NCBI GenBank assembly: GCA_017545365.1
Contig: JAFWOP010000029.1
Span: forward strand, 39,592-103,591
Source of the DNA: Bacteroidales bacterium
GTDB taxonomy: Bacteria > Bacteroidota > Bacteroidia > Bacteroidales > P3
Reading direction: 5' to 3'
Length of the DNA: 64,000 bases
Positions 12,741 through 62,275 of the stretch are shown piece by piece; within the stretch, counting starts at the first letter, position 1; every line of letters begins with the position of its first letter. The position numbers were made by a program, and so were the translations under genes. Under the pieces are notes generated by a model. That model ran no database searches and was not told the origin of the DNA. It worked only from the letters and a program-made list of their open reading frames with translations.

Positions 12741-12814
12741 GGATTCGTTAATTATTGAGTCTTTGATGCACCAAGACTAACATATTAACACATTAACACG
12801 TCAACACATTCAAA
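12741..12814 (+). repeat. Word-built hairpin element, family 1
   Basis: Left word ATTCGTTAATTATT, core GAGTC, loop TTTGATGCACCAA, core GACTAAC, then 8-bp words of the AACACATT type (ATATTAACACATTAACACG) and an end CACATTC. It lies between the priA stop and the ruvX promoter. The same architecture, with different loops, occurs at six other places in the window. Confidence 0.7.
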
Positions 12815-12831
12815 ATATCAATTTTTTTGTG

Positions 12832-12839
12832 TATCTTTG
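12832..12839 (+). promoter_or_regulatory. -7 promoter element for ruvX
   Basis: TATCTTTG followed by C, 24 bases before the ATG at 12864, which implies a very short leader. It supports this start over an in-frame ATG at 12837 that would lie inside the promoter. Confidence 0.6.
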
Positions 12840-12863
12840 CACGCTAAAACTGTATATATAAAA

Positions 12864-13277
12864 ATGGGAAGAATCCTTGCAATCGACTATGGCATAAAGC
12901 GTACCGGCATCGCGGTGACTGACCCCGAACGCATCATTGCGACAGGTTTGACCACCGTGAACACCCCTTTGCTGATGCAATGGCTGCAGGACTACTGCAA
13001 AAAAGAGCTGGTGGATATCTTCGTGGTGGGCGAGCCCAAGCACATGGACAACACCCCCTCGCAGTCGGCCCGTATCATAGAACCCTTTGTACAGAAACTG
13101 GCCGAGCTGTTCCCCGGCAAGGAGATTGCCCGCATCGACGAGCGATTCACCTCCAAGATGGCCTTCCAAGCCATGATCGACGGCGGACTGAAGAAGAAAC
13201 AACGGCAGGACAAGGCGATGGTAGACCAGGTGAGCGCCACAATCATGCTGCAAGACTATATGAGAAGTATGAGTTAA
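12864..13277 (+). CDS. ruvX: Putative pre-16S rRNA nuclease / Holliday junction resolvase (YqgF)
   Basis: This 137-residue RNase H-fold protein begins MGRILAIDYGIKRTGIAVTD, where the first catalytic Asp sits in AIDYG. VVGEPKHMDN and IDERFTSKMA supply the other conserved residues, and AMVDQVSATIMLQDY holds the last Asp. The family processes 16S rRNA ends, and was earlier proposed to cut Holliday junctions. It stands alone between word-built repeats. Confidence 0.92.
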   Translation: MGRILAIDYGIKRTGIAVTDPERIIATGLTTVNTPLLMQWLQDYCKKELVDIFVVGEPKHMDNTPSQSARIIEPFVQKLAELFPGKEIARIDERFTSKMAFQAMIDGGLKKKQRQDKAMVDQVSATIMLQDYMRSMS

Positions 13278-13284
13278 CAACTAA

Positions 13285-13402
13285 ATGAATGCTTGAATGT
13301 TTGATTGTGTTAATGCTTGAGTAAATGCTTGAATGTTTGATTATGTAAGTACCTAAGTAATAGCACTCAAACAATCAAGCAATCAAACAATCAAACATTC
13401 CT
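13285..13402. repeat. Word-built hairpin element, family 2
   Basis: Words of the TTGATTG/CTTGAATG type on the left and AATCAAAC/AATCAAGC on the right. GAATGTTTGATT on the left pairs exactly with AATCAAACATTC on the right. It fills the spacer between ruvX and def. Related tracts are at 33885-33925 and 41375-41470. Confidence 0.6.
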
Positions 13403-13431
13403 CTAACCCTTATTAAGTAAACATAAACGAT

Positions 13432-13989
13432 ATGATATATCCAATTATAGGCCTCGGCCACCCCACATTGCGCAAAGTGGCGCAACCCATCGACAAAGAC
13501 TATCCCGACTTGCAACAGTTGATAGCCGATATGTATGAAACCATGTATGCCGCCGACGGCGTGGGCCTTGCCGCCCCGCAAATCGACCTCTCGATACGGC
13601 TGGCCGTGATAGGCTTCCGCCCCTACGACGAGAAGACCGACACCTACGGCCCCGTGGTCGAGCAGCACACGCTTATCAACCCCGAGATTCTTGAGTACAA
13701 AGGTGAGAAACAGTACTTCAACGAGGGCTGTCTCAGCGTCCCCGACATCCATGAGGATGTGCTGCGCACCGAGGCTGTAGTGGTGCGCTGGTACGATGAG
13801 AACTGGCAGCTGCACGAGGAAGAGTTGCACGGCATGTTCGCCCGCGTGGCCCAGCACGAAATCGACCACCTCGAAGGCAAGGTCTTTACCGACCGACTCA
13901 GCACCCTCCGCCGCACCATGCTCAAACGCAAAATCAACGACGTGGTCACCGGCAAGGTGCGTACCAACTACAGAATGAAAAGAAAGTAA
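13432..13989 (+). CDS. def: Peptide deformylase
   Basis: A metalloprotease that removes the formyl group from new proteins. All three motifs are present in 185 residues: GVGLAAPQ (about 43-50), EGCLSVP (about 100-106) with the metal-binding Cys, and QHEIDHLEG (about 143-151) with both metal-binding His and the catalytic Glu. Length is normal for Bacteroidota. Confidence 0.97.
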   Translation: MIYPIIGLGHPTLRKVAQPIDKDYPDLQQLIADMYETMYAADGVGLAAPQIDLSIRLAVIGFRPYDEKTDTYGPVVEQHTLINPEILEYKGEKQYFNEGCLSVPDIHEDVLRTEAVVVRWYDENWQLHEEELHGMFARVAQHEIDHLEGKVFTDRLSTLRRTMLKRKINDVVTGKVRTNYRMKRK

Positions 13990-14010
13990 CTTATCAACAT
14001 ATCAGAACCT

Positions 14011-24256: not shown

Positions 24257-25194
24257 TCAAACAATCATTTCAAGTGCTATATATTTAAAGTTATTGCCAT
24301 TCCATTCAACAATGGCGTTTGTTGTAACTTGTGTTACACCTTGTTTTTTTATTAACGATGATAATGCTGCGACATAATTAGTATAATCAATCCCGTGTAT
24401 TAACCGTATTATTTCTGAACCCGCTTTAGAGAGTTTAATACATTTAATATTTATTTTAGTATCATTAGGTGCATAAACATTTAGTCTTATCTGAGGGTTA
24501 AGAGCAAATGAATATTTTCCAGACTCAATAGTATATGTGTTAATCAAATCTTCCCCACACACTATGCCAATGTCATCCAATAGTATTTTTTCATTTAGAT
24601 TCAATGCAAAGTTTTCTATACAAATGAAATTCAATCCCAATAAATATGTGGATACTTTTACTATAGTTTCTGCTTCTTCTTTTGAGATATTTCTCAACAC
24701 TTCCAATGTCCTAAGTGAATACGATTTTGGCTTCTTCACCTCACCTGCTAACACTCTTGCCCATAATTCACGCATTTCGTCATCCGATATGGTTTCTGCA
24801 ATATCGAGAAATCGGGTCATCCAATCATTATCTACAGGTTCGCTTGACACCTTCTCATCTGGAGTAAACTGTTGTTCTGCCTTGACAAGTATCTCACCCA
24901 CATTTTCTATCTTTTGAGTATTTCTTGCCAAAACATAATGAATTCGTTAATTCGTTAATTCGTTAATTCGTGAGTCAATTGATTAACACATTAACACATT
25001 AACACGTTAACACATTCAAAACGAAGAATCTCTACTTCGGCATCTGACTCTGCTTTCTTCTTGGCAAGAATTGATTGTGCTTTGGCTTCCCCATGGGCAT
25101 TTATTATAGTTCCTAAAGCAGTTAACCCCGTTGCGTTTGCAACAGTTTCTACAAGTTTATCTAACCCAAGTGTTACATTGACAGGCAATCCCAT
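24257..25194 (-). pseudogene. DUF2806 gene split by a family 1 repeat
   Basis: Two pieces of one gene. The N-terminal piece (25194 to about 25021) encodes MGLPVNVTLGLDKLVETVAN and stops at ...DAEVEILRF before running into repeat. The C-terminal piece (about 24938 to 24257) encodes the main DUF2806 region with NDWMTRFLDIAETISDDEM and LWARVLAGEVKKP. The 81-base repeat at 24940-25020 lies between them, and the two pieces are not in the same frame, so a single full product is unlikely. DUF2806 proteins are uncharacterised and often found in defence islands. A short C-terminal product could start at TTG 24931. Confidence 0.75.
24940..25020 (+). repeat. Word-built hairpin element, family 1, inside a gene
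   Basis: GAATTCGTTAATTCGTTAAT words, TGAGTCAATTGATTAAC core, then AACACATT words ending CACATTCAAA. Left and right arms can pair at about six of every eight positions. It sits inside the DUF2806 coding region, which shows that this element type can enter or replace coding DNA. Confidence 0.8.
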
Positions 25195-25232
25195 ATTGTT
25201 CTCTTTTTTAAACTAACGTATTTATCTGCAAT

Positions 25233-26336
25233 TTATTGTCCTTTAACTTTCACTTCGCCAGACATTAGGCGTGGGAGAAGGGTGTCTCGTTGTGTAGTCA
25301 GTGTTTGCATTTGTTGTTGGTTGGATTTAATCTTCTTAAAGAAAGGTTTTACCAGTGCTGTAAACACATTAATTGTTTCCTCATCTGGAATAGTAATATC
25401 AAGAGACTTAAAAGCAGTCTTACTAATCTCCATAAAGGTTGAACCGTTTGAGTAACTATGAACCGCCTCCATATTTTCCTTTAGCCACAGATATATAAAC
25501 TCTTTCGGGTAGCCTTTATCATCAATTATTGCAATATAACCTTGATTGATTGCTACAGGTATCTCTGCAAATGCCAAAACTCCTACAGGTGCACGTGACG
25601 ACATTAATAATGTTCCTGCCGGAAGTAATCCGGAACTAATTTTTGCTAACCCTTCTTCCGTGATTGTTCTCTCTGTTTTGAAAAGGTACATACCATTTAA
25701 TGTGGTTACATCTCTTGGTGATGTCCATGCTATATTGCCATTCCAAAAACGGGGTTCGTTAGTGCTTGGGGTAGTGCCTCCCTTGACAGAAAGAATATCT
25801 CCCAGTTTGCCTTCTTTCCAGGTGGGGTCGGGGTTTTCTATGAAGTAGTGGAGGAAGAGGGTTTCGGCGAGGGCTTCGAGGGCTGCGTTCTCTCGATTCA
25901 ACAAATCTATCTTGTCATCCAACGAACTCAACACCCCCGCTATCCGCCTCTGCTCAACAATAGGAGGAATAACAACATCTATCGAATTCAATAATCTCTG
26001 AGTAACAAGTGGGTGTGTTGAACCTTCCGCATACCCATTAAGATTTAGATGTTGCAATAAATAGTATAAAAATTTAGTATCATTACCATTTTTAGGTTTA
26101 GCTGCTAAAGCGTTATCTGATACCCATATGGATTGATTTGTGTAATAGACAGAACCACAATAAGCTCCAACCCTTCCTACAATAACAGTTTCACCCTCAT
26201 AATTATTCCGATTTGTATAATCCAATACACCATTACCCCCATAGACAGGTATAGGGCCTTTGTCCTTAGGTCTTTCTTTTCCATTACCCCAAGAAACGAC
26301 TTCTCCTAATTTATATTTCTTCCAATTATTCATCAT
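25233..26336 (-). CDS. hsdS: Type I restriction enzyme, specificity subunit (HsdS)
   Basis: 367 residues with two target-recognition domains. The first spans about 1-125 (WKKYKLGEVVSWGNGKERP to PLVTQRLLNSIDVVIPP), then a conserved helix (EQRRIAGVLSSLDDKIDLLNREN), then the second TRD (about 175-335, from WKEGKLGDILSVKGGTTPS) and a final helix (QQQMQTLTTQRDTLLPRLMSGEV). The two TRDs read the two halves of the DNA target. The start ATGATGAATAAT overlaps the stop of a gene remnant upstream, a sign of past translational coupling. Confidence 0.94.
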   Translation of the reverse strand: MMNNWKKYKLGEVVSWGNGKERPKDKGPIPVYGGNGVLDYTNRNNYEGETVIVGRVGAYCGSVYYTNQSIWVSDNALAAKPKNGNDTKFLYYLLQHLNLNGYAEGSTHPLVTQRLLNSIDVVIPPIVEQRRIAGVLSSLDDKIDLLNRENAALEALAETLFLHYFIENPDPTWKEGKLGDILSVKGGTTPSTNEPRFWNGNIAWTSPRDVTTLNGMYLFKTERTITEEGLAKISSGLLPAGTLLMSSRAPVGVLAFAEIPVAINQGYIAIIDDKGYPKEFIYLWLKENMEAVHSYSNGSTFMEISKTAFKSLDITIPDEETINVFTALVKPFFKKIKSNQQQMQTLTTQRDTLLPRLMSGEVKVKGQ

Positions 26337-26430
26337 ACAATTGCTCGTATAATTTGCTTATCTCAGCACTTAATAATGTCTCTTGTGTTCTAATCATTCC
26401 CGCCTCATTAACATCCACATGGAACCAAAT
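26326..26430 (-). pseudogene. 3' remnant of an unknown gene, cut by a family 1 repeat
   Basis: An open frame with no start reads WFHVDVNEAGMIRTQETLLS and continues AEISKLYEQLYDE before a TAA that overlaps the hsdS start. The coding text begins exactly where repeat ends (26430/26431). It looks like the C-terminal tail of a gene once translationally coupled to hsdS, whose 5' part was lost. The parent family is not recognised. Confidence 0.55.
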
Positions 26431-26642
26431 GAATTCGTTAATTCGTTAATTCGTTAATTCGTGAGTCAATTGATTAACACATTTTGAATTCGTTAATTCG
26501 TAAATTCGTTAATTCGTGAGTCAAATGACTAACACATTTTGAATTCGTTAATTCGTAAATTCGTGAGTCATTTTACCGCGCCAAGGACTAACACATTAAC
26601 ACATTAACACGTTAACACATTCAAAAACACGTTAACACATTC
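26431..26642 (+). repeat. Word-built hairpin elements, family 1 (three in a row)
   Basis: Three successive left arms (GAATTCGTTAATTCG...) with cores GAGTCAATTGATTAAC, GAGTCAAATGACTAAC and GAGTCATTTTACCGCGCCAAGGACTAAC (read with the loop), the first two with only a short right arm, the last with AACACATT words repeated and ending CACATTC. It separates the hsdS-side remnant from the nucleotidyltransferase gene. Confidence 0.78.
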
Positions 26643-26949
26643 TATCAGACTTCTCATATATTACGATTCCTCTGCGATTGATATGGTCAATCAGCATGTC
26701 GTTTTTTAGCTGATGAAAGATTGAAATATCAAACTGGTATGGCAACAGTAGGTCGTCAATAGCAAGGATAATCCGATTGAGATCCTCATGGGTCAACTCA
26801 TCCCCAACCAATGTGATGTCCACATCGGAAAAAGGCTTGTAGTTTCCTTTGGCTCGAGAACCCTAGAGCAAAACTCGGTTTATCCGAGGATTGGCCGCCA
26901 TAACGCTCTTGATTTTATTCCATTGTTCATCCGTTAGTCCGTACTTCAT
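26632..26949 (-). pseudogene. MNT-type nucleotidyltransferase (antitoxin-like) with in-frame stop
   Basis: From the ATG at 26949 the frame reads MKYGLTDEQWNKIKSVMAAN, then PRINRVLL, a TAG (26863-26865), then GSRAKGNYKPFSDVDITLVG. The last part is the GSRAKG-x-DxD active-site motif of minimal nucleotidyltransferases, and the stop replaces the aromatic residue that normally precedes it (LLYGSRAKG type). Everything after the stop stays in frame to the end at 26632, where the last codons run into repeat DNA. In MNT/HEPN modules this protein blocks the HEPN toxin by adding AMP to it. The stop should abolish it unless read through or suppressed. Confidence 0.8.
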
Positions 26950-26953
26950 TGCA

Positions 26954-27379
26954 TTAAACCATTTTGCCCGTCATTGTTGTTTCAAACTTCACAAAGAGGG
27001 GATAATATACATTGATAATATTATTGACAATGTGTTTCGCTGTTTCATCATCATGATTATGTGAGGTAAGGTTACGGTCAGAAATAGTATCCATCCATCT
27101 GTCATCATCAAGGATTCCTGCCCGCAAGGCAACCCGAATAGCATCCCGTGAACCCATAATATCTGTTATGCCTTGATATTCCTCATAGTCTTTCATTACC
27201 TTCCAGGCCAACTCATGAGTATATTCATATCGCTGAATCAGTCCTTCCGCCAACAAATCATTCTGGTCGGAGGAACCATTTGACAGCGCTGACACAATGT
27301 TGACTGCCTTTCCCAGCTGAATCAATGCCTTCCGATAATTGCTGAATCGTTGTATCCAACGTACATCTTTATCTTCCAT
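26954..27379 (-). CDS. HEPN-domain protein, HI0074/HepT-like toxin candidate
   Basis: 141 residues of the nucleotidyltransferase substrate-binding (HI0074) family. WIQRFSNYRKALIQLGKAV is the usual N-terminal helix and SDRNLTSHNHD holds the R-x4-H motif that forms the RNase site in HEPN toxins. The reading frame is intact and ends four bases before the nucleotidyltransferase ATG, so the two were an operon. With the partner broken, an active toxin should be harmful; it may be tolerated because of low activity, residual partner synthesis, or another inhibitor. Confidence 0.85.
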   Translation of the reverse strand: MEDKDVRWIQRFSNYRKALIQLGKAVNIVSALSNGSSDQNDLLAEGLIQRYEYTHELAWKVMKDYEEYQGITDIMGSRDAIRVALRAGILDDDRWMDTISDRNLTSHNHDDETAKHIVNNIINVYYPLFVKFETTMTGKMV

Positions 27380-27387
27380 ATTTTTTC

Positions 27388-28905
27388 TTACTTAAGTTCT
27401 ATCTTATTTAGGTTCTCCAGTATCACCTTGTTCAGGCGTTCCTCCTCTTTCAACAGTATCACGAACTCGGCGCGGAGGGCGGTGAAACGTTCGGCGAAGT
27501 TGAAGTCGTCTTCCTCTTCGGGCAGGCCAACGTAGCGACCGGGAGTGAGCACATAATCCAGCTCGGCCACACGGCTGACGGGCACCGAGGCGCAAAAGCC
27601 CGGTACGTCGGCATAGTCGGCACTCTCGTCGCGCCAACGGTGGTAGGTGTCGGCAATGGTGCGGATGTCCTCTTCGGTCAACTCACGGGTGCGACGGTTG
27701 ATAAGGCGGCCCATATTGCGGGCGTCGATAAAGAGAATCTCCCCTGCCCTCTTATTACGGTTACGGCTGACGAACCACAGACAAGCAGGAATCTGGGTAT
27801 TGAGAAACAATTTGGCAGGCAGATTGACGATACAGGCGATAAGCCCTTTGTCGATAAGTGCCTTTCGTATCTCACCTTCGCCACCTGTTTTTGACGTCAG
27901 CGACCCTTTGGCCAGCACGAAACCCGCCTGCCCTGACGGGGCAAGGTGATAGATGAAGTGTTGTATCCAAGCAAAGTTGGCATTGCCAGCAGGGGGCACA
28001 CCATACTGCCAGCGGGCATCGCCTCGCAGCTGGTCGCCGCTCCAATCGCTGTCGTTGAAGGGCGGGTTGGCAATGACAAAGTCGGCCTTCACATCTTTGA
28101 GGGCATCGTTGAGGAAGGAGCCTTCGGTGTTCCACTTCACCTGCGAGGCATCGATACCTCGGATGGCAAGGTTCATCTTGCACAGCCGCCAGGTTGTCTG
28201 GTTGCTTTCCTGTCCATAGATGGAAATATTCTCTATGCGCCCTTGATGCTCGCGCACAAACTTCTCGCTCTGCACAAACATACCTCCCGAGCCACAGCAA
28301 GGGTCGAGCACACGCCCTTTATAGGGTTCCAGCATGGTCACCAGCAGTTCCACAACACTACGCGGTGTGTAGAACTGTCCGCCTTTCTTGCCCTCGGCCA
28401 AGGCGAACTCACCAAGGAAATACTCGAACACATGCCCCAGCAAGTCAGCACTGCGGGTGCTGGTGTTCTGCAGGGTGGAGTTGCCGATAAGGTCTATCAG
28501 TTCGCCCAGCGACGTGGGGTCGAGATTGGGACGTGCAAAGACCTTCGGCAGCACACCTTTCAACGTGCGGTTCTCGCGCTCGATGGCATCCATGGCATCA
28601 TCAATTGCCTTGCCGATTAGCGGGCTCTTGGCCTGTGCCATCAGATGGCTCCAGCGGGCACTCTCCGGCACATAGAACACATTCTCTGCGGCATACTCTT
28701 CGCGGTCTTCGGGGTCGGCACCATCTGCCTGTTGTTTCACCAACTCATTGTAAAGCCGTTCAAACTCCACCGATATGTAACGCAGGAATATCAATCCCAG
28801 CACCACATGCTTGTATTCTGCCGCGTCGATGTTCTTACGCAGCTTGTCGGCGGCTTTCCACAGCCGTTTTTCCAGAGGTTCGTCCACTATTTCCTTCTTT
28901 GCCAT
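27388..28905 (-). CDS. hsdM: Type I restriction enzyme, methylase subunit (HsdM)
   Basis: 505 residues: N6-adenine methyltransferase that protects host sites and forms the core of the complex. The N-terminal helical domain (about 10-150) includes LWKAADKLRKNIDAAEYKHV. GGQFYTPRSVVELLV, then VLDPCCGSGGMFV (SAM binding, about 205) and FVIANPPFNDSDW (NPPF catalytic motif, about 287) follow. The C-terminal part binds HsdS. It is the first gene of the leftward island and is followed after eight bases by the HEPN gene. Confidence 0.96.
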   Translation of the reverse strand: MAKKEIVDEPLEKRLWKAADKLRKNIDAAEYKHVVLGLIFLRYISVEFERLYNELVKQQADGADPEDREEYAAENVFYVPESARWSHLMAQAKSPLIGKAIDDAMDAIERENRTLKGVLPKVFARPNLDPTSLGELIDLIGNSTLQNTSTRSADLLGHVFEYFLGEFALAEGKKGGQFYTPRSVVELLVTMLEPYKGRVLDPCCGSGGMFVQSEKFVREHQGRIENISIYGQESNQTTWRLCKMNLAIRGIDASQVKWNTEGSFLNDALKDVKADFVIANPPFNDSDWSGDQLRGDARWQYGVPPAGNANFAWIQHFIYHLAPSGQAGFVLAKGSLTSKTGGEGEIRKALIDKGLIACIVNLPAKLFLNTQIPACLWFVSRNRNKRAGEILFIDARNMGRLINRRTRELTEEDIRTIADTYHRWRDESADYADVPGFCASVPVSRVAELDYVLTPGRYVGLPEEEDDFNFAERFTALRAEFVILLKEEERLNKVILENLNKIELK

Positions 28906-28924
28906 AATGTTTTACGATGATATA

Positions 28925-28954
28925 ATGCAAGCCCGTCATTTGGCGGGCTTGCAT
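28925..28954. terminator. Strong hairpin after gcvP
   Basis: A perfect 11-bp stem (ATGCAAGCCCG with CGGGCTTGCAT) and eight-base loop, 18 bases past the gcvP stop. There is no clear T run on the minus strand, so it may be a weak terminator or an RNA 3' end stabiliser. It separates gcvP transcription from the hsdM island. Confidence 0.6.
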
Positions 28955-28971
28955 AGGTAGAGAAGCGCATT

Positions 28972-31824
28972 TTATTCTTCGGCGGGCCAGACGGGCTGGA
29001 GATTGCGGTCGCCGTAGGCGTCGTCGATCTTGCTGATGGTCGGCCAATACTTGTCGCCATGAGGCAGCGGGAATGCTGCAACCTGACGGCTGTAGGGATA
29101 GTTCCACTCGTCGGCGCAGACCACCTGCATGGTGTGGGGTGCGTTGGCGATGGGGTTGTTCTTCTCGTCGTACTTACCGGTCATCACGTCGTCAATCTCC
29201 TGACGGATGGCGATGAGGGCGTCGCAGAAGCGGTCGAGTTCGCTGAGGGGTTCGCTCTCGGTGGGCTCGACCATGAGGGTGTTGTGGACGGGGAATGCCA
29301 CCGTGGGGGCATGGAAGCCGTAGTCGTCCAAGCGGCGGGCAATATCGCCCACGCTCACCTTCAGGCTAAACTCGGAGAAGTCAACAATCATCTCGTGTCC
29401 GCACATGCCGTTCTTGTTAGTGTAGAGAATCTTGTAGTACTTCTGCAGGCGGGCGCGCAGGTAGTTGGCGTTGAGGATGGCGTGGCGTGTGGCCTCGGTC
29501 AGGCCGTTGCCGCCCAGCATGAGCAGGTAGCCGTAGCTGATGGGGAACAGCAAGGCGTTGCCGTAAGGAGCGGCAGCCATGGCGTTGCCCTTCTTGCCAC
29601 CCACCTCGACCTGACTGTGCTTCGGCAGGAAGTCGAGCAGCTTGGCGCAGACAGCGATAGGACCGACACCGGCACCGCCGCCGCCGTGAGGACCTGCGAA
29701 GGATTTGTGGAGGTTCAGATGGCACACGTCGGCACCCATTCGTCCGGGGCTGGTGATGCCGATTTGGGCGTTCATGTTGGCGCCGTCCATATAGACGAGT
29801 CCGCCCGCGCCGTGGATGATGTCCACAATCTCGAGGATGCCCTCTTCGAAGGCGCCGTGGGTGGAGGGATAGGTGATCATGATGCAGGCAAGGTTCTCCT
29901 TGTATTGCTCCACCTTCGCCTTGAGGTCGTCGATGTCCACATCGCCGCGGTCGTTGCATTTCACCACCACCACGGTCATGCCCGCCTTGGCAGCACTGGC
30001 AGGATTGGTGCCGTGGGCACTGGCGGGAATAAGGCACACATTGCGGTTGGCCTGACCTTGGTCGATATGGTAGTTGCGGATAACGGTGAGGCCGCTGTAC
30101 TCGCCAGCAGCGCCCGAATTGGGCTGCAGGCTCACGCCGGCAAAGCCGGTGACGATGGCCAGCAGGTCTTCCATCTCGTTAATCATCTCGTTCCAACCTT
30201 CAGTCTGGTCGGAGGGGGTAAAGGGGTGCATCTGGCCGAACTGGCTCCAACTCAGCGGCAGCATCTCGGCGGCAGCGTTGAGCTTCATGGTGCAGGAGCC
30301 CAGCGGAATCATGGCGCGGTTGAGGCTGAGGTCCTTCACTTCCAGCTTCTTCATGTAGCGCATCATCTCGGTCTCGCTGTGATACTTGGAGAACACGCTG
30401 TGGGTCAGGTAGGGGGTCTGGCGCATCAGGTTGCCGGGCAGCGAGGCGGTGGAGCAGCAGCAGCCGTTGCACTGCAGCAGTTCGGGGGTCTTACCGGCGG
30501 CGGTGGCCAGGACGGTGATAATCTCGTTGACATCCTCCTTCGAGGTGGTCTCGTCGATGCTGATGCCAATGCACTCTTCGCAGATATAGCGGAAGTTGAT
30601 ATGATGCTCCAGAGCCACCTTCTTCACCACGTCGGTCTTCACCGGGCACTGCAGTGCGAGGGTGTCGAAGTAATAGCGGTTGTGCTGTTTGTAGCCGTAC
30701 TTCATCAGTTCTTTCTCCAGAACGGTGGCAATGGCGTGGATGTTGCCAGCAATGCGGCGGATGCCTTCGGGGCCGTGCCAAGCGGCATAAAAGCCGCTCA
30801 TGATGGCCTGCAGCGCGGAGGCGGTGCAGATGTTAGAAGTGGCCTTGTCGCGCTTGATGTGCTGCTCGCGCATACCCAATGCCATACGCAGGGCAGGGTT
30901 GCCCTTCACGTCCACGCTCCAACCGATGATACGGCCGGGGAAGGCACGTTTGAAGGTCTCGGTGATTGCGAAGAAGCCGGCATGAGGGCCGCCGAAGCCC
31001 ATGGGCAGGCCGAAACGCTGGCTGCTGCCAAAGGCGCAGTCGGCACCCATCTCGCCAGGGGTCTTCACCATGGCCAGGGCCATGAGGTCGGTGGCCATAC
31101 CCACGAAGATGCCTTTTTCGTGGCACTTGGCGATAAAGTCGGTGTAGTCGCACACTTCGCCAAACTGGTTGGGGTTCTGAACCACCACGGCAAAAAACTG
31201 GGCGGGGTCGAAGGAGAAGTCGGCCACCTTACCGGTGACGATCTCAATGTTGCGGGGGGCGGCGTTGGTGCGCATCACGTCGAGGGTCTGGGGCAGAATG
31301 CCTTCGTCGACGAAAATCTTGTTCACCCCGTCCTTCTGGGCCTGACGGCTGCGGCTGGCGAAAAACATAAGCATGCACTCGCCACCGGCGGTAGCCTCGT
31401 CCAGCAGGCTGGCGTTGGCCATGGGCATGTGGGTCATGTCGGCCACCATAGTCTGATAGGTCATCAAAGCCTCCAAACGGCCTTGGCTTATCTCGGTCTG
31501 ATAGGGGGTGTAGGCGGTATACCAGCCCGCGTTCTCAAACACATTGCGCTGGATGACGGCGGGGGTGATGGTGCCGTAGTAGCCCATGCCGATATAGCTC
31601 TTATAAGCCTTGTTCTTCTTGGCGAGGGCGCGGCAGCGGTTGAGGAATTCGTACTCGTTGATGCCGTCGGCAATAGGCATCGGCTCTTTCAGGCGGATGG
31701 CGGCGGGAACGGCCTTGTCAATAAGTTCGTCCATCGAGCTAACGCCGATTTCTTTCAGCATTTTCTCTTCGTCAGCAGCCTTGGAGACACCGTTGTGTCT
31801 CGGGGTGAAATTGTTGCTAATCAT
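28972..31824 (-). CDS. gcvP: Glycine dehydrogenase (decarboxylating), single-chain P protein
   Basis: The P protein of the glycine cleavage system: a PLP enzyme that decarboxylates glycine and passes the aminomethyl group to lipoyl-H protein. 950 residues is the full fused length. The PLP lysine lies in LNLHKSFAGPHGGGGAGVGP (about residue 705), and the glycine-rich loop follows it. PLGSCTMKLNAAAEM and HGTNPASAAKAGM are family hallmarks. It starts MISNNFTPRHNG after a good promoter. gcvT and gcvH are not in the window. Confidence 0.97.
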   Translation of the reverse strand: MISNNFTPRHNGVSKAADEEKMLKEIGVSSMDELIDKAVPAAIRLKEPMPIADGINEYEFLNRCRALAKKNKAYKSYIGMGYYGTITPAVIQRNVFENAGWYTAYTPYQTEISQGRLEALMTYQTMVADMTHMPMANASLLDEATAGGECMLMFFASRSRQAQKDGVNKIFVDEGILPQTLDVMRTNAAPRNIEIVTGKVADFSFDPAQFFAVVVQNPNQFGEVCDYTDFIAKCHEKGIFVGMATDLMALAMVKTPGEMGADCAFGSSQRFGLPMGFGGPHAGFFAITETFKRAFPGRIIGWSVDVKGNPALRMALGMREQHIKRDKATSNICTASALQAIMSGFYAAWHGPEGIRRIAGNIHAIATVLEKELMKYGYKQHNRYYFDTLALQCPVKTDVVKKVALEHHINFRYICEECIGISIDETTSKEDVNEIITVLATAAGKTPELLQCNGCCCSTASLPGNLMRQTPYLTHSVFSKYHSETEMMRYMKKLEVKDLSLNRAMIPLGSCTMKLNAAAEMLPLSWSQFGQMHPFTPSDQTEGWNEMINEMEDLLAIVTGFAGVSLQPNSGAAGEYSGLTVIRNYHIDQGQANRNVCLIPASAHGTNPASAAKAGMTVVVVKCNDRGDVDIDDLKAKVEQYKENLACIMITYPSTHGAFEEGILEIVDIIHGAGGLVYMDGANMNAQIGITSPGRMGADVCHLNLHKSFAGPHGGGGAGVGPIAVCAKLLDFLPKHSQVEVGGKKGNAMAAAPYGNALLFPISYGYLLMLGGNGLTEATRHAILNANYLRARLQKYYKILYTNKNGMCGHEMIVDFSEFSLKVSVGDIARRLDDYGFHAPTVAFPVHNTLMVEPTESEPLSELDRFCDALIAIRQEIDDVMTGKYDEKNNPIANAPHTMQVVCADEWNYPYSRQVAAFPLPHGDKYWPTISKIDDAYGDRNLQPVWPAEE

Positions 31825-31872
31825 ATTGTTATTGTATATAAGTATTATTATAAAATCTTCAAATTGAATTTA

Positions 31873-31904
31873 CAAAGATACTACTTTTGCGCGAAATAAG
31901 CAAA
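31873..31904 (-). promoter_or_regulatory. Bacteroidota promoter of gcvP
   Basis: Minus-strand -7 TATCTTTG (31873-31880), 20 bases after a TTTG -33 (31901-31904). About 48 bases before the gcvP ATG. No T-box, glycine riboswitch or other leader structure is evident in this short leader. Confidence 0.65.
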
Positions 31905-32098
31905 AAAAGTTTAGAGAATTCTCAATTCTCCACGTATCGCACGAATCACATATGGTGGGTTCTATTAATTCGTTTTCAATGTCGTTTGTTCTCCACTACG
32001 TTTTACTCCGTTATTGAAGAGCCACTGGCACTTCTTCATCTTCGGGACGCATCTGTTTACCTCAGATAATCATCGCACTACGTACGGTGTTATTCATA
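31905..32098. other. Intergenic spacer upstream of gcvP
   Basis: No gene seen. It begins with a short family-5 type word pair (AGAGAATTCTCAATTCTCC at 31913-31931), then a moderately complex stretch with hairpin potential (CATTGAAG-like and GCACTACGTACGGTGT words). It joins the tandem duplication at 32099. Confidence 0.4.
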
Positions 32099-32303
32099 AG
32101 AAGTAAGAACTAAGAAGTAAGAATTAAGAAGTTTTGGGCGGCAGCCATTACTTCATACTTCATAGTTCTTACTTCTTACTTCAATATACCGGTCGGCTCC
32201 ATAGAAGTAAGAACTAAGAAGTAAGAATTAAGAAGTTTTGGGCGGCAGCCATTACTTCATACTTCATAGTTCTTACTTCTTACTTCAATATACCGGTCGG
32301 CTC
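32099..32303. repeat. Tandem duplication of a word-built hairpin (family 4), 101 bp twice at 104-bp period
   Basis: Each copy reads AAGTAAGAACTAAGAAG words, the GGGCGGCAGCC centre, then complementary CTTCATACTTC/TTCTTACTTC words, then AATATACCGGTCGGCTC. Copy 1 spans 32099-32199 and copy 2 spans 32203-32303, identical as far as can be read. The duplicated unit includes the last codons of the metallopeptidase gene (ADRYIEV), so the duplication is younger than the joining of repeat and gene. Confidence 0.8.
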
Positions 32304-32934
32304 TGCGTTCGGTCCAGAAGTCCTCGTGGCGGTGGCTGCAGCGTTTGGAAAGCCCCAGTAGCTGGCTTACGAGGCTGGGGAGCCCCACGACGGGCAGGTA
32401 GAGCCATCCCCACAGCTGGCTGTCGACCGTGTGGCCGTATTCGTGCAGGAATATACGGCCTGCATAATGGCGGGCGTAATGCTCGAAGTCGGTCCGTATC
32501 TCCACCGGTATCCACATCTGCACAAAGCACCCCAGCGACATACCCGTGTAGGCATGTTCCTTTCGATGACAACAAGTCACATAAGTGACCCCGCCCAGCG
32601 TGTCCACCCTGTCCACATTGCCTATGATTACCCGCACCTGGGCAATGGCGTAGCTGAGAAAAAGCTGGGGCAGCTCCCAAGTGAAGCGTGTGACAGCCTG
32701 ACTGACAGCATGTCGGCGGTCGGCGTCGAAACGGTAGCGACTGCAGAACAGCTGCCATGCCAGCCTTCTCTTTCTCAACAATGCCAGCACGGTGATGAAA
32801 ATGTTGATGCCTTTGGCAGCAAAGAACACTCCTGCCCCTACCCTGCCAACCGGGGTGCCGCCCAAGAAGAGCAGGACGGCGGCACCCCATGTGGCAGAGA
32901 CGAGCGTAAGGGCAATGATGCGCGGCAGGGGCAA
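32257..32934 (-). CDS. Membrane protein with HExxH zinc-peptidase motif
   Basis: 225 residues. Two hydrophobic helices at about 5-27 and 35-52 suggest membrane anchoring. FLHEYGHTVDSQLWGW (about 159-174) carries the HEYGH form of the HExxH zinc motif, and TERRADRY near the end could give the third ligand or a supporting acid. The family is uncharacterised but recurs in Bacteroidota. The final codons (EVRSKNYEV) are encoded by word-built repeat DNA, so the natural C-terminus was replaced or trimmed. Substrate unknown. Confidence 0.65.
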   Translation of the reverse strand: MPLPRIIALTLVSATWGAAVLLFLGGTPVGRVGAGVFFAAKGINIFITVLALLRKRRLAWQLFCSRYRFDADRRHAVSQAVTRFTWELPQLFLSYAIAQVRVIIGNVDRVDTLGGVTYVTCCHRKEHAYTGMSLGCFVQMWIPVEIRTDFEHYARHYAGRIFLHEYGHTVDSQLWGWLYLPVVGLPSLVSQLLGLSKRCSHRHEDFWTERRADRYIEVRSKNYEV

Positions 32935-32946
32935 GAGACCGATGGT

Positions 32947-35006: not shown

Positions 35007-35011
35007 AGTAA

Positions 35012-35790: not shown

Positions 35791-35806
35791 AATTGAAAAA
35801 ACACAT

Positions 35807-39490: not shown

Positions 39491-39503
39491 CTTAGTTCTT
39501 AGC

Positions 39504-40046: not shown

Positions 40047-40054
40047 TTTAGAGG

Positions 40055-40165: not shown

Positions 40166-40169
40166 ACAA

Positions 40170-41360: not shown

Positions 41361-41507
41361 TGGCTTATAACGTTAGTCATTGCTTGAATGTGTTAATGCT
41401 TGATTAAATTGAAAAATAAAAGTTAAAATTGGCTGGCGCGGTCAAATTACTCAAACAATCAAACATTTTAATATATAACGCCAAAACTCCGAAGATATTG
41501 CTCTTTT

Positions 41508-41704: not shown

Positions 41705-41716
41705 GTTTGGCACCAC

Positions 41717-41746
41717 GAAAAAAGCCGCCACCCGTTGGGCAGAGGC
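41717..41746 (-). terminator. Rho-independent terminator of the flavodoxin gene
   Basis: On the minus strand GCC...GCCC-AAC-GGGTGGC...GGC is followed by TTTTTT, starting about 25 bases past the stop at 41772. An outer CACCAC/GTGGTG pair extends the stem. Confidence 0.7.
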
Positions 41747-41771
41747 TTGTGGTGTTGCTTAATTGTTGGAA

Positions 41772-42452: not shown

Positions 42453-42467
42453 TTTTCTAATTTGTAG

Positions 42468-43562
42468 TTATTGCAATGTGCTATACTGTTCGTCGGTGAC
42501 GGGTTCCAGCCACTCGTTGCTGTTGCCGGGTTTGGCGTTGGCGTGGTAGGTGAGGTGCTGCATCCAGCTGTCCTTGGCGGCACCGTGCCAGTGCTTCACG
42601 CCCTCTGGGATGGCGATGGTGACGCCGGGTTTAAGCTCTACGGCGGGTTTGCCCCACTCCTGATACCAGCCGCGACCGCTCACGCAGATGAGTATCTGGT
42701 TAGCGCCGTGGTGGACGTGCCAGTTGTTGCGGCAGCCGGGCTCGAAACTGACGTTGCATAGACCGCTTACAGTGTCGAGCAAGGCCAGATAGCTCTGCCC
42801 TGTGAAATACTTGGCGTAGGCGTCGTTGGGTTCGCCCAAGGGCCACGACGAGGGGGATACGACGGGCATCTGCTGTCCGTCCACAGCGGCAATGGCGGCC
42901 TCACAGCGCAGCGCCTCTGCCTCCATACCGTGTGAACGTAACGAGGCGACGATACCGTTCAGCTGTTCCTTGGTGACACCCATATTCAAGGCACCGCGCA
43001 CGTGGGCCTGAAGTTGAGGCATCACACCTTCTAATCCGCTCAGCGCACTGACGGTTACCAGCTCGCGGTCGGCATGGGTGAGCAGGTCACAAGCGAAGAT
43101 GTCGCCGAAGAGGTGGGCTTTGAGATAGTAGTCCTCGGCGGGGCAGAACGTGTAGTCGAAGGGTTGCCCAGTGAGGCGTGTCTGCACCTCGGTGCCCTGT
43201 TTCAGTGCGTCGTAGCCGGAGGGCAAGGGCGACGACTCGGCACCTTCGTCCTCGATGCCGCGCTCCTGCATCACCTTCTGCAACGTCCCCAATGCGTTGA
43301 GCGAACGCGGGAAACCGGTGTAGGCATAGAGTTGCGAGAGGGCTTCCTTCATCTGGCCCACGGTGAGACCTGTCTCAAAGCCTTCGCCGAAGGCTACGGC
43401 GAGCGACGATTGGTCGCCCCGTGCCTCGTGGCAGGCAATGACGGTCATCGCCGCCGCCTGCCGCTCGTTGAATGAGAGTGTGTTCATATCCTTGTCTGTC
43501 TGTTTCTGTCCGCCGCAGGCGACAAGCAAAGCGGCGGCGACAATCAAAATGCTCTTTTTCAT
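42468..43562 (-). CDS. Carboxymuconolactone decarboxylase-like / cupin fusion lipoprotein
   Basis: 364 residues. Signal MKKSILIVAAALLVAC, then two CMD/AhpD-like helical domains (about 30-110 and 130-225, with CHEARGDQSSLA and LTHADRELVTVSALSG), then a cupin (about 255-345) with HVHHGANQILICVSGRGW and PEGVKHWHGAAKDSW as metal-binding histidines. Such fusions are common in this redox cluster type; the reaction is not known. It overlaps no neighbour and lies two bases after the hydrolase gene. Confidence 0.9.
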   Translation of the reverse strand: MKKSILIVAAALLVACGGQKQTDKDMNTLSFNERQAAAMTVIACHEARGDQSSLAVAFGEGFETGLTVGQMKEALSQLYAYTGFPRSLNALGTLQKVMQERGIEDEGAESSPLPSGYDALKQGTEVQTRLTGQPFDYTFCPAEDYYLKAHLFGDIFACDLLTHADRELVTVSALSGLEGVMPQLQAHVRGALNMGVTKEQLNGIVASLRSHGMEAEALRCEAAIAAVDGQQMPVVSPSSWPLGEPNDAYAKYFTGQSYLALLDTVSGLCNVSFEPGCRNNWHVHHGANQILICVSGRGWYQEWGKPAVELKPGVTIAIPEGVKHWHGAAKDSWMQHLTYHANAKPGNSNEWLEPVTDEQYSTLQ

Positions 43563-43564
43563 CG

Positions 43565-44638
43565 TTATTTCAAGTTATGCTTGTTCAACCATTCGGCCAC
43601 CAGGTCGGCAATCTCGGCGTTGTTCATCTCTTGGAACAGGAAGTGGCTGTTGCCACGGATGCCCTGGTCGGGCAGGTGGATGACGGTGGCGTCGCCTCCG
43701 TCGGCGTTATAATGCTCGGCGAAGTCTCGGCACTGGTTCAGCACCATCTGCCAGAAGCCGGTCGACTGGATGTCGGCGGGACCGTTCTCGATATTGTCGC
43801 CGAAGAGGAAGAGCATCGGCACCTTGGCCTCGACGAACTTCTGGTATTCGGGCGAGCCTACCTGCGGTGCGAAGCCCGGCTCGATGGCCACGATGGCGGC
43901 GATGTTGTCGGCATCTGTGGCCCATCCCACGCGGCCACCCTGCGAGTGGGTGACGTAGACCACCTTGTGGCCGGTCATCGTCTGCACATCGCGCAGCACG
44001 CCGCTCATCACGCTGCCGAAGAGCGGCTCGTCGTAGTTGCCTGTGCTGGGCGTCATCTGGCAAAAGAACTGCGTCTGCGCCTCGTCGCCGGCGGGGAACT
44101 GCGAACCCTCGTAGCGTTCGGGAGCCACGCGGCCGATGCGGAAATGGGTGTACCAGGCCTGTTCGCCCACCTTGAACTTGCCGCCTTCCACGTCGCCAGG
44201 GTCGGTTACTATCATCTCGGTGGCGGCGGCGGCACCGCGGCGCGGCTGGTCGACGAGGAACACGGAGTAGCCCTTCTTCAGAAAGAGGTCGCTCCAGCCC
44301 TCACGCCCGTCGGGAGTGGCCTGCCAGCCCGTGCGCGTCTGCCCGTAGCCATGCAGGAATACCATCGGTATGCCGTTGCCCGAGGCGGGAATCTGGTAGA
44401 AGGTGTTGGCGTGGTCCACGTGCGTGGTGGTGCCCTTGCGCGAGGCGTCCATCCAGTTCTGCGTGGGGTCGTAGTCGCCGGGAATGGGGGCGGTCACCGT
44501 GCCGCCCGACGAGAAGACACCTTGTTTTTCAATCACGAGGCCCGTCTGTGCGGCCTCATCCTTCTGGTTGCAGCAGGCGGCAAAAACGAGTATCGCCGCG
44601 ATGAATGTGATTCTTGCGAGACTCTTCATGTTATTCAT
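43565..44638 (-). CDS. Alpha/beta hydrolase lipoprotein
   Basis: 357 residues. The signal ends LVFAAC and is followed by CNQKDEAA, which resembles the Bacteroidota lipoprotein surface-export signal (Lys plus two acids). MVFLHGYGQTRTGWQAT is the oxyanion loop, VYVTHSQGGRVGW holds nucleophile Ser (GHSxG-like), and HLPDQGIRGNSHFLF the final His. Probably an esterase for a small ester in or outside the envelope. Confidence 0.87.
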   Translation of the reverse strand: MNNMKSLARITFIAAILVFAACCNQKDEAAQTGLVIEKQGVFSSGGTVTAPIPGDYDPTQNWMDASRKGTTTHVDHANTFYQIPASGNGIPMVFLHGYGQTRTGWQATPDGREGWSDLFLKKGYSVFLVDQPRRGAAAATEMIVTDPGDVEGGKFKVGEQAWYTHFRIGRVAPERYEGSQFPAGDEAQTQFFCQMTPSTGNYDEPLFGSVMSGVLRDVQTMTGHKVVYVTHSQGGRVGWATDADNIAAIVAIEPGFAPQVGSPEYQKFVEAKVPMLFLFGDNIENGPADIQSTGFWQMVLNQCRDFAEHYNADGGDATVIHLPDQGIRGNSHFLFQEMNNAEIADLVAEWLNKHNLK

Positions 44639-44650
44639 GCTTATTGGTTA

Positions 44651-45226
44651 TTAAAACAGTTTATCGAGCCACCTGTCTATCTCACCTTGCTTGCGGTCCA
44701 TACCCTTACCGTTCATCTCTTTGGTGACAACGCAGATGCCGTCGCGGTGGTCGCTCTTGGGCGTCGCTTTCTCTATGTCGCGCAAGGTGGACGAGGGGCC
44801 ACTGTAGGCCGTGCAGAACGGGATGACGGTCTTGCCGCTAAGGTCGTATTGTTCCAGGAAGGTGAATACGGGCATCGGGGCGGTGTACCACCACACAGGA
44901 GCGCAGACAAACACCACGTCATATTGTTCCATATTGCTCACCTTGCCCTTGATGGCAGGATGAGTGTCGGCCTCTTTCTCGGCCTTTGCCTCATTGGCGC
45001 ACTCGTCGTAGTCGGTGGGATAGTCGACCACGCGGGCGATCTCAAACTGGTCGGCACCCAGTTTCTGTGCCATGTAGTCGGCGGTCGCCTTTGTGTTGCC
45101 ACTCCACGAGAAGTAAGCTACCAGCACTTTCTTGTTGTTCATTTTTTCTCCTTTCTTTTGAGCGCAGGCCGTGAGGCTCGTAAAGGTAAGCAATGCCACG
45201 GTCAGCGCGATTATTATTCTTTTCAT
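44651..45226 (-). CDS. Exported flavodoxin lipoprotein
   Basis: 191 residues. Signal MKRIIIALTVALLTFTSLTAC, lipobox LTAC, then KKVLVAYFSWSGNTKATAD as the FMN loop, YDVVFVCAPVWWYTAPMPVF and a C-terminal helix. A shorter form starting at MNNKKVLVAYFS would be cytoplasmic. Paralogue of the protein at 41772-42452. Confidence 0.87.
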   Translation of the reverse strand: MKRIIIALTVALLTFTSLTACAQKKGEKMNNKKVLVAYFSWSGNTKATADYMAQKLGADQFEIARVVDYPTDYDECANEAKAEKEADTHPAIKGKVSNMEQYDVVFVCAPVWWYTAPMPVFTFLEQYDLSGKTVIPFCTAYSGPSSTLRDIEKATPKSDHRDGICVVTKEMNGKGMDRKQGEIDRWLDKLF

Positions 45227-60368: not shown

Positions 60369-60390
60369 AGTATCTTGTTTTTAATAATCA

Positions 60391-61239
60391 TTATCCTTGC
60401 AATTGAAACTGTCCTGTGCGGATGCTGGCAATCACACCTCCGTCGATAAGCAGGTCGGTGCCGGTGATGAATTGGGCGTGCTCGCCAAGCAGGAAGGCGG
60501 CAGCTTCGGCAATCTCGTCGCTGGTGCCTGTGCGCTGTGCGGCAGAGGTGTCAATCATATTCTGGTAACCCTCGCCATTGGCGTTGAACTCGTCGTAGGC
60601 CAACGGGGTAACGACGACACCCGGCGAGATGGTGTTGATGCGGGCGTGGCGTTTGCGCCAACTGGTAGCCGCGGCACGCTGAGCCTGCAGATGGTTCAGC
60701 CGTTTGGCAATCATATAGGCAAAGCCGCTGTTCTGCATAGCAACTTCCTGGATGAACTTCACCTCCTTCAGTTTGGCAGTAGGTGTCTGAACCAGTTGCA
60801 GCTCAATGTCGTTGGGGATGGGATACATATAGGCCGCCTGACTGCTGATAATGAGACCTGCACCGCCCGCGGCCATCACTTCGCCAAAGGCATCGACGGC
60901 ATAGCCTGTACCCACCATATCGAGGTCGACAATGTGCTCAGGATTGGCCTGATTGGGTGATGCTCCAGCTGTGTCGATGAAGTACATCACAGGGCCCATC
61001 TCTGCCGCCATCCGTGCAAATGCCTCCACGCTTTCCTTCTGCAAGGCGTTCACCTGCATCGTCTCTGCGTCATAGCCGCAACGGCGAAAGTCCTCGCCGA
61101 CGCGTTTCAGGGTTTCTTCGCTGATGTCGCCAAGCAGGATTTTCTTGCCTGCTCCAATGCGGCGCACGATGGCGGTTCCCATACTACCGGCACCCAAGAG
61201 TGCCACTACCTGTTTGTGTTCATTTCTGTCGAAAATCAT
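60391..61239 (-). CDS. SDR-family oxidoreductase
   Basis: 282 residues. The Rossmann start is unusual: VVALLGAGSMGTAIVRRIGAG (GxGSMG) with GDISEETL. Later LIISSQAAYMYPI supplies the catalytic Ser region, and YMIAKRLNHLQAQRAA the Tyr-x3-Lys; PGVVVTPLAYDEF and LLIDGGVIA are SDR hallmarks. So a dehydrogenase acting on a small carbonyl is likely. 11 bases after the acyltransferase gene. Confidence 0.88.
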   Translation of the reverse strand: MIFDRNEHKQVVALLGAGSMGTAIVRRIGAGKKILLGDISEETLKRVGEDFRRCGYDAETMQVNALQKESVEAFARMAAEMGPVMYFIDTAGASPNQANPEHIVDLDMVGTGYAVDAFGEVMAAGGAGLIISSQAAYMYPIPNDIELQLVQTPTAKLKEVKFIQEVAMQNSGFAYMIAKRLNHLQAQRAAATSWRKRHARINTISPGVVVTPLAYDEFNANGEGYQNMIDTSAAQRTGTSDEIAEAAAFLLGEHAQFITGTDLLIDGGVIASIRTGQFQLQG

Positions 61240-61250
61240 ATAATGGCCTC

Positions 61251-61778
61251 CTATTCTACGTTCTTGATAAACTTGGCGGGATTGCCACCCACGACGGTGT
61301 TGGGGGCCACGTCTTTGGTCACCACCGCTCCGGCGGCCACGACGGCGTTGTCACCGATGGTCACCCCCGGCAGGATGGTAGCACCCGCACCCACCCAGGC
61401 GTTACGGCCTATGTGGACGGGCTTGCAGATGAGCAGCTGGCGGTCGTGCAGGTCGTGGTTATTGCTGATGAGCTGCGCGTTGGCGGCAATCATCGCGCCG
61501 TCGTTGATGGTGATGCCTCCACGGGCCATCATCAAACAGTTGTTCATAATCATAACATTGCGGCCTATCTTCACGCGGTCGAAGCAGACCCCCGTCAGGC
61601 CGGGCATCACCCAACCGCCTTCACCAAGGTTGTCGCCGAAGAGCTCGCGCACCAGCGCGTTGTACTCATCGGTATAGGGCATTGTGTGATTGAGGCGGAA
61701 AAGCACCTGCGCCTGACGCACGCCCTCGGCGTGTTCTTCGGCAGTTGTGAGTCTGGGGTTAACTATTGTTTCTTGCAT
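61251..61778 (-). CDS. Hexapeptide-repeat acyltransferase (LacA/Maa-like)
   Basis: 175 residues. FRLNHTMPYTDEYNALVREL is the LacA-type N-terminus. GVCFDRVKIGRNVMIMNNCL and AQLISNNHDLHDRQ hold the catalytic His, and AWVGAGATILPGVTIGDNAV the left-handed coil. It acetylates a sugar or related alcohol. First gene of the operon, with a -7 box TATTTTTGC at 61832-61840. Confidence 0.9.
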   Translation of the reverse strand: MQETIVNPRLTTAEEHAEGVRQAQVLFRLNHTMPYTDEYNALVRELFGDNLGEGGWVMPGLTGVCFDRVKIGRNVMIMNNCLMMARGGITINDGAMIAANAQLISNNHDLHDRQLLICKPVHIGRNAWVGAGATILPGVTIGDNAVVAAGAVVTKDVAPNTVVGGNPAKFIKNVE

Positions 61779-61831
61779 AAGTATCTGTTATTTTGTATGT
61801 TATTTTAATCTTATTAAGTCGAAATCACTTT

Positions 61832-61840
61832 GCAAAAATA
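61832..61840 (-). promoter_or_regulatory. Promoter of the acyltransferase-SDR-ADH operon
   Basis: TATTTTTGC on the minus strand, about 54 bases before the ATG at 61778. The AT-rich DNA on to 61990 also carries the rightward promoter of the truncated ATPase gene (TATTTTTGC near 61971-61980). The AraC gene at 62325 is the probable regulator. Confidence 0.55.
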
Positions 61841-62002
61841 CAACCATTTTTCCGAATAGCTATTTCACAAAAAGCACCAATATTTTCACAATAAACATAA
61901 ATTGCTTGAATGTGAACTTATTCTTTTTACACATTTTGTGTTATACATTTTGTGTAATTGTGCTTTTTTTGTATTTTTGCATCAGAAAAGAATTTGTGAA
62001 AT

Positions 62003-62128
62003 ATGGATAATCCTTTTATTTTCAGGACGTATAAGACGAAAGAAAAGTTCTGTGACCGCCAAAAAGAACTGGAAAAACTGCTTTCGAATGCTCTTTCAAG
62101 AGCCGATACAACCCTGATAGCACAGTGA
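62003..62128 (+). pseudogene. 5' fragment of an AAA-type ATPase gene
   Basis: 41 residues: MDNPFIFRTYKTKEKFCDRQ, then KELEKLLSNALSRADTTLIAQ*. The first part matches the start of Bacteroidota ATPases that continue ADTTLISPRRxGKTGLI, where Walker A would follow. Here the sequence leaves that path after DTTLI and uses CCTGATAGCACAGTGA, the exact last 16 bases of the TPR gene at 14520-14535. So the ATPase was cut and joined to foreign DNA at a shared CTGATA. Confidence 0.7.
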
Positions 62129-62275
62129 AGAAATGGAGATTTGAGAATTGAGAACTAACTGAATTCGTTAATGTGTTAATTCGTGAGTCATTTGACCGCG
62201 CCAAGGACTAACACATTAACACGTTAACACATTCAAGAATTCTCCATTCTCCATTCCAAAGGCGGCAGCCTACTT
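62129..62275. repeat. Nested word-built hairpins (family 1 inside family 5)
   Basis: Outer arms GGAGATTTGAGAATTGAGAA on the left and TTCTCCATTCTCCATTCC on the right enclose a complete family 1 unit (GAATTCGTTAATGTG, GAGTCATTTGACCGCGCCAAG, GACTAACACATTAACACG, ending CACATTC). GGCGGCAGCC follows at 62262. One element has entered another of a different vocabulary. Confidence 0.72.

Follow-up and report, generated by a model that had tools for sequence, protein, structure and literature searches.

What is the dispersed hairpin that recurs along this stretch of a Bacteroidales contig, and how did its copies spread? The stretch, here called the window, is 64,000 nt long, and the element, Family 1, consists of copies of about 40 to 210 bp with arms made of tandem words: AATTCGTT-type words in the 5' arm and AACACATT or AACACGTT words in the 3' arm, as read directly at all seven of its places. 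Block dispersal, nesting, variation in unit number, turnover in gaps, and occurrence in gaps and, rarely, in protein loops were observed. On this basis we propose, giving it an even chance, that Family 1 is one of several short, dispersed, selfish-like hairpin families whose copies are moved by template switching at the hairpin tip.

The seven places, singled out by an earlier sequence-only reading of the window, are real: with at most two mismatches, TTAATTCGTTAATTCG has 20 matches in the window against 0.01 expected, and AACACATTAACACRTT has 28 against 0.16. By our cutting they hold at least 11 hairpins, three of them at 26431-26642 and two each at 35462-35622 and 39331-39490:

12741 to 12814, + strand: Family 1 (Oct1) hairpin in the PriA-RuvX gap, with loop TTTGATGCACCAA
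14544 to 14666, + strand: Family 1 hairpin that fills the gap between a TPR gene and MutL and has additional units in its 3' arm
24940 to 25020, + strand: Family 1 hairpin with four units per side, adjoining the 3' end of hsdS
26431 to 26642, + strand: three head-to-tail Family 1 hairpins, adjoining the 5' end of hsdS
35462 to 35622, - strand: two Family 1 hairpins, in reverse orientation
39331 to 39490, + strand: a pair of Family 1 hairpins; the second has loop ATTTTACCGCGCCAAG and additional units in its 3' arm
62158 to 62236, + strand: Family 1 hairpin inside period-7 arms at 62132-62154 and 62239-62256

Positions 26430-26564 repeat with a 55-bp period at 96% match, and the arm region 35500-35540, in the first hairpin of its place, was found also in the relatives G001, G007 and G005. 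The claim of a dispersed hairpin element of variable unit number is thus supported, with many copies that extend to relatives. The GAGTC...GACTAAC core described for it is present, if looser than described, with GTTAGTC..GGCTCAC and GTGAGTC..GATTAAC as variants. The type I restriction specificity gene hsdS (25236-26336) is flanked on both sides by Family 1 copies of the same orientation, which could permit cassette exchange, and the hsdS-flanking stretch is absent from G006 contig 63. At three other places (L007, L020 and L190:12773 in G003), an unrelated segment ending TTGTACAACG lies inside a Family 1 left arm.

Counting Family 1, there are at least seven word families, and most have a period of 7 or 8. 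Alongside Oct1 (Family 1) we named Oct2, with TTGATTGC (TTGATTG[CT]) words, Oct3 (GTTGATA.), Oct4 (AAGGTTTT), HeptA (TTGAAAA/TTGAGAA), HeptB (AAGAAGT) and HeptC (TAAAAAC), and loop cores such as GCTGCCGCACC and TTTGACCGCGCC recur. Four of these families have hairpins in the window at the following positions:

13282 to 13405, no strand assigned: Oct2 hairpin (TTGATTG[CT] words) between RuvX and def
32097 to 32303, no strand assigned: HeptB hairpin (AAGAAGT words) with flanks, a 104-bp unit in 2.0 copies at 100% match
40046 to 40167, no strand assigned: Oct4 hairpin (AAGGTTTT words)
63157 to 63236, no strand assigned: HeptA hairpin (TTGAGAG / CAATTTT words) with core GGTGCGGCAGC

The arms of the different families are nested in a strict order. 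We call the + and - arms of our word parser G-type and C-type. In every mixed-family cluster (at least two families and both arm types), all G-arms precede all C-arms: this holds for 26 of 26 clusters in the discovery set for nesting (the window with 260 kb of G001) and for 14 of 14 in a later set of 389 kb fetched after the parser was made, of which at least one place (L021, in L181) had already been viewed. Random arm order would give 7.1 and 4.5 clusters, respectively. Complete nested hairpins of two families number eight, all in the discovery set, and no two complete hairpins of different families lie side by side. When no word list is used, adjacent arrays at most 60 bp apart are G-C in 52 cases, C-G in 2, G-G in 26 and C-C in 12, with 3 ties, and the parser found 7 clusters of at least two arms on the reversed sequence versus 69 on the real one. 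One composite has a hybrid core, the left half being that of HeptA and the right half that of Oct2, joined at GCCGCGG, which by our reading backs template switching.

Copies also recur as blocks. An exact ordered four-word 5' arm is common to 8 of 23 Family 1 loci in three genomes; because unlinked loci have their units in the same order, we conclude that copies spread in blocks of several units and that simple slippage is unlikely. The window copy at 26541-26642 has 45 exact bases in common with a G003 stretch whose flanks match window 538-1584 and 1754-2950, and the copy at 62158-62236 has 43 in common with a G001 stretch beside a match of window 41362; in neither case are the two places orthologous. 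A composite junction of 56 bases is present in both G003 and G001, at one place each. At L190:18778 in G003, a Family 1 copy lies between matches of window 1584 and 1754, a presence/absence place, and Tandem Repeats Finder listed no array at window 1578-1727, opposite this copy.

One and the same gap holds different families, or none, in related species. The RuvX-def gap carries Oct2 in the window and a HeptA/HeptC/Oct2 composite in G006, and is empty in G001, G002, G003 and G007. The gap between the TPR gene and MutL carries Oct1 in the window, Oct2 in G006 and HeptC in G003, and is empty in G001, G002 and G007. The gap at 40047-40184 contains Oct4 in the window, Oct4 outside with HeptA/Oct2 inside in G003, and in G001 is an empty 16 bp. 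G006 has Oct4 hairpins in three gaps that measure 6 to 58 bp in the window, two of them with short Oct1 arms flanking. Because identity in the MutL region is no higher than about 74-78% in any of the five genomes compared, loss of an element and its original absence are indistinguishable there.

The families are widespread among relatives. The contig scan spanned 84,980 species, each represented by a single genome, and the strict Family 1 core pattern was found in 23 stretches of seven metagenome-assembled genomes (MAGs), all with Bacteroidales or Bacteroidetes in the title. Rumen or omasum is named in two of the seven titles; RUG-numbered MAGs we take to be rumen assemblies. With window 24900-44800 as BLAST query, six of these seven genomes had 69 to 123 matches and G005 had 16, genes being counted too. 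An arm-pattern search of 99 relatives, G001 included, found Family 1 words in 45 and HeptA words in 59. At least one of the two patterns is present in 53 of the 60 genomes that head the list (G001 to G063) and in 10 of the 39 that follow (G064 to G102), a split by list order and not a kinship grouping. The reversed-pattern control was nearly empty for Family 1, except in G039 (8+5), and not empty for HeptA (55+49 in G001, 37+19 in G006, 28+31 in G033), presumably owing to a resemblance between the reversed pattern and HeptB words. Late in the list, G096 has 49 HeptA-pattern matches, and its list neighbours six or fewer. No viral contig matched the strict core pattern, and 39330-39490 matched no plasmid or phage with the low-complexity filter on, which makes this second result weak evidence; carriage by viruses or plasmids was rejected.

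Periods 7 and 8 dominate among the arrays. In the window and 260 kb of G001, 78 arrays have period 7, 64 have period 8 and 49 have period 14, a multiple of 7, with 0 to 5 arrays at each remaining period from 4 to 13 and at 15. In other genomes, where periods up to 20 were scanned, the later stretches gave period 7 / period 8 counts of 8/8 in G002, 17/10 in G006, 27/16 in G003 (where period 11 adds 7 arrays and period 12 adds 6) and 22/7 in G058; the counts are 1/14 for G007 and 3/0 in 15 kb for G044. Stretches of nine relatives that show no more than one arm match (149 kb excluding N) yielded 2 arrays of period 7, 0 of period 8 and 5 of period 11. Hairpins of period-11 words were seen in relatives that lack the 7- and 8-nt words (L118:7498 in G034 and L121:9581 in G049), and FolC of G022, another such relative, has an in-frame insert of period-11 words (L206), so that the hairpin build may recur with this other period. 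In a longer tandem repeat at L091:13471-14706 in G001, HeptA words are mixed with blocks resembling GTGTTCGCC.A.GGGACCA.TAC.

How could such copies move? In the mechanism that we propose, a replication fork would meet a hairpin and the nascent strand would switch template at its tip by way of short matches in the shared core; another hairpin would then be copied before the strand returned. Slippage would alter the number of units, selection would eliminate copies that break genes, and the fixed arm mismatch may protect the element from attack on perfect palindromes. A fuller version, possible though less likely than not, is that these hairpins are selfish DNA without an enzyme of its own, that tip template switching puts a new hairpin inside an old one, that words and period (7, 8, and 11 in some relatives) turn over as the shape persists, and that some copies become protein segments.

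Several points weigh against template switching at the tip. We infer it only from the nesting and one hybrid core, and the G-before-C order could also be explained by outer arms added around older hairpins. The later set holds only partial mixed clusters (14) and no complete nested hairpin, and three clusters of the discovery set are tandem pairs of the same family. Target-site duplication is a feature of miniature inverted-repeat transposable elements (MITEs); the flanks of the gaps compared are too diverged to offer an alignable empty site, so that no such duplication is definable. Finally, the completeness of the MAGs is not stated, and a missing transposase therefore proves little.

This last point bears on the strongest alternative, possible if somewhat doubtful, according to which a transposase that reads single-stranded hairpins, for example a RAYT/IS200-like (Y1) enzyme or an unrecognised one, moves the copies in trans as non-autonomous mobile elements. 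Copies do disperse as units that have polarity. In 39 oriented Family 1 hairpins, 135 of 169 words in the 5' arm are AATTCGT and 150 of 161 words in the 3' arm, read as reverse complement, are AATGTGT or AACGTGT, ATTCG words being confined to one arm in 34 of the 39. The mismatch beside the core is T-C in 34 and C-A in 33 of 36 copies. Taken together, the unlike arm words and the near-fixed mismatch show that Family 1 has two different ends and a built-in mismatch. Y1 domains are present in 71 of the 99 genomes, including G001 (two matches) and G002 (three). However, G006, which is among the richest in elements, has none, and Y1 occurs in 23 of 37 arm-rich genomes (at least 20 arm-pattern matches) versus 17 of 23 arm-poor ones among the 60; moreover, a single enzyme would have to read many word families. 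Arm counts in these 60 genomes are associated with neither Y1 nor reverse transcriptase (Spearman 0.01 and -0.15), which counts against both as movers. Loss of SbcCD as a permissive cause was rejected, SbcD being present in the element-rich G001, G002 and G006.

We consider it unlikely that the hairpins have a host function at gene ends, for instance as 3' ends of transcripts, stabilisers of messages or sites of chromosome structure, with words turning over because shape alone counts. Such a function would agree with the refilling of one gap by other families, with the good folding of several copies and with the high occupancy of gaps. Measured against simple gene calls made by codon score, 165 of 199 arrays lie at most 20% within genes and 20 lie at least 80% within. 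Among gaps of 30-1500 bp in the window and 260 kb of G001, about half are occupied (69/145): 52 of 106 co-directional, 8 of 21 divergent and 9 of 18 convergent gaps. These figures reveal no clear preference for a gap type, however, and several orthologous gaps are empty. In 39 co-directional gaps, Family 1 polarity runs with the flanking genes in 20 and against them in 19, 14 further clusters having no clear polarity; with no orientation bias, a transcription-linked role was rejected. A three-frame stop cassette was also rejected, the excess being too small: G-arms have stops in all frames in 55 of 96 arrays versus 49% after column permutation.

Copies inside genes also speak against a role at gene ends. 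In G001, HeptA hairpins or arms lie in frame in Rho, FolC, a glycosyltransferase and a secreted repeat protein; NSLIRKCVNSLVK is an example of the peptides that in-frame copies encode. Of the clusters with at least four words, 8 of 138 are inside a called gene by 60 nt or more, the gene call being doubtful for one (L186), and an open frame among the six exists in 19 of 98 hairpin clusters. Among 23 homologs that align with the FolC query at 78-97% identity the insert varies, and a repeat peptide is found in 102 of the 114 homologs with an excisable site, among the best 120 of 7,992, which are close relatives; comparison at the DNA level covered 8 of 30 loci. In the glycosyltransferase loop, the insert is excisable in 51 of the 120 homologs listed, 19 of which match the repeat-peptide list; for both proteins this list omits Family 1 and Oct2 peptides. 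One glycosyltransferase homolog, P0134, contains NSLIRKCVNSLVKDSHINTLT, an exact reading of the intergenic Family 1 copy L083:4211, and a protein search with this segment returned six proteins, each the same glycosyltransferase. Family 1 inside genes thus looks rare. The Oct2-type peptide TIKQSSN occurs near the loop site in P0130, P0132, P0148 and P0149, which like P0134 are known from protein sequence alone.

A host role for the folded shape also receives no help from covariation. We aligned 36 Family 1 copies cut at the core, leaving out duplicates and copies that do not fit the core motif. Over 31 pair positions, canonical pairing is found in 810 of 1116 cases versus 816.2 (sd 6.1) with shuffled partners, and 435 of 500 shuffles attain the observed count; without one wrongly oriented row, the figures are 792 of 1085 versus 804.9. 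Individual pairs lie above expectation in 9 cases and below it in 12, the best at 34 versus 30.4. Matched for length, own arms outperform foreign arms in just 0.38 of the comparisons made with oriented Family 1, in 0.17 for unoriented Family 1 (19 hairpins), and in 0.67, 0.53 and 0.30 for HeptA (15), HeptB (8) and Oct2 (8); without length control, the values are 0.26 for Family 1, 0.70 for HeptA, 0.46 for HeptB and 0.36 for Oct2. The HeptA advantage is perhaps weak homogenisation. The arm lengths of one hairpin correlate weakly (rho 0.33, 55 hairpins). Pairing in Family 1 is no better than independent columns give, and compensating changes, which the earlier reading had proposed as a sign of selected structure, were rejected. 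The two-base mismatch of Family 1 is nearly fixed beside the core, and about five to six of eight positions pair, where about six had been claimed. The long RNA hairpin that the earlier reading predicted holds in part: when five of the seven places (26431 and 39337 left out) were folded as + strand RNA, three beat shuffles (z -3.5 to -4.7), but folding was weak at 12741-12814 (z -1.7) and 35543-35622 (z -1.3). Rfam at gathering threshold matched zero families in the window.

Far less probable is that the loci are unrelated products of simple local slippage. Unit number does vary, and the arms change without compensation, which the sequence-only reading had taken as pointing to slippage; the arms indeed do not covary, but unit order and loop cores are common to unlinked loci, and opposite-type arms stand nearly always in one order. 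Least credible of all are products of a reverse transcriptase (retron, diversity-generating retroelement or telomerase-like), for which short tandem words offer an analogy to templated repeat synthesis and nothing more, and against which RVT_1 has 0 matches in the element-rich G001, G002 and G006 and occurs in 13 of 37 arm-rich versus 11 of 23 arm-poor genomes.

We recognised no description of this hairpin set in the open-access literature, a scope outside which most subscription papers fall. The comparisons below rest on excerpts of the papers cited. Closest in build is stem P6b of the cyanobacterial (Nostoc) tRNA-Leu(UAA) intron, with runs of degenerate 7-nt words in which two word classes interchange as the shape stays, and with some insertions that add side hairpins (PMC4476775); HeptA and HeptB hairpins are likewise two complementary arms of degenerate 7-nt words. 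P6b is, however, one place in a group I intron, and the excerpt describes no dispersal, 8-nt families or in-gene copies (PMC4476775). Unlike P6b, Family 1 has 8-nt words, and the window has no tRNA-Leu group I intron match in Rfam at gathering threshold. Rickettsia palindromic elements, about 150 bp long and in ten families, sit in frame in unrelated genes (PMC10969869), a habit shared by our copies in FolC, Rho, the glycosyltransferase and the secreted repeat protein; compared by description only, they differ in that the excerpt makes no mention of tandem-word arms and that our copies are mostly intergenic. BrickBuilt, a MITE of Porphyromonas gingivalis with a 23-nt unit and 19 forms in one strain, resembles our families in being from Bacteroidales, lying between genes, and combining tandem repeats with small inverted-repeat ends (PMC4596501). 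As there described, it differs in being always intergenic and is a minisatellite between ends, whereas here two complementary repeat arms are found, and its 23-nt unit is not matched by the 8-nt unit of Family 1 or by the dominant periods 7 and 8. GTAG/CGTC repetitive extragenic palindromes (20-40 bp, stems of 5-13 bp, a tetranucleotide tag) are likewise numerous and dispersed, sometimes in genes, the CGTC type apparently without a dedicated transposase (PMC3733652); no tandem-word arms are described in that excerpt, in contrast to the word arms and lengths of about 40 to 210 bp here. TAACTGA heptamer direct repeats form runs in gaps of some Bacteroidetes and cyanobacteria (PMC4679880), as one direct word with no complementary second arm in the part available, whereas here words differ and arms are inverted. 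Heptamer repeats are reported to be abundant in bacteria (PMC4692102).

If our proposal is true, about half of the sampled gene gaps in a bacterial lineage would be filled by a repeat without a recognised mover, one that keeps a strict nesting order and gives in-frame peptides to housekeeping proteins. The origin of REP-like palindromes and of heptamer abundance would then be testable by resequencing cultured relatives. Repeated peptides in Bacteroidales proteins, such as ESGKLKVE and NSQFSILNSQ, can be translated DNA repeats.

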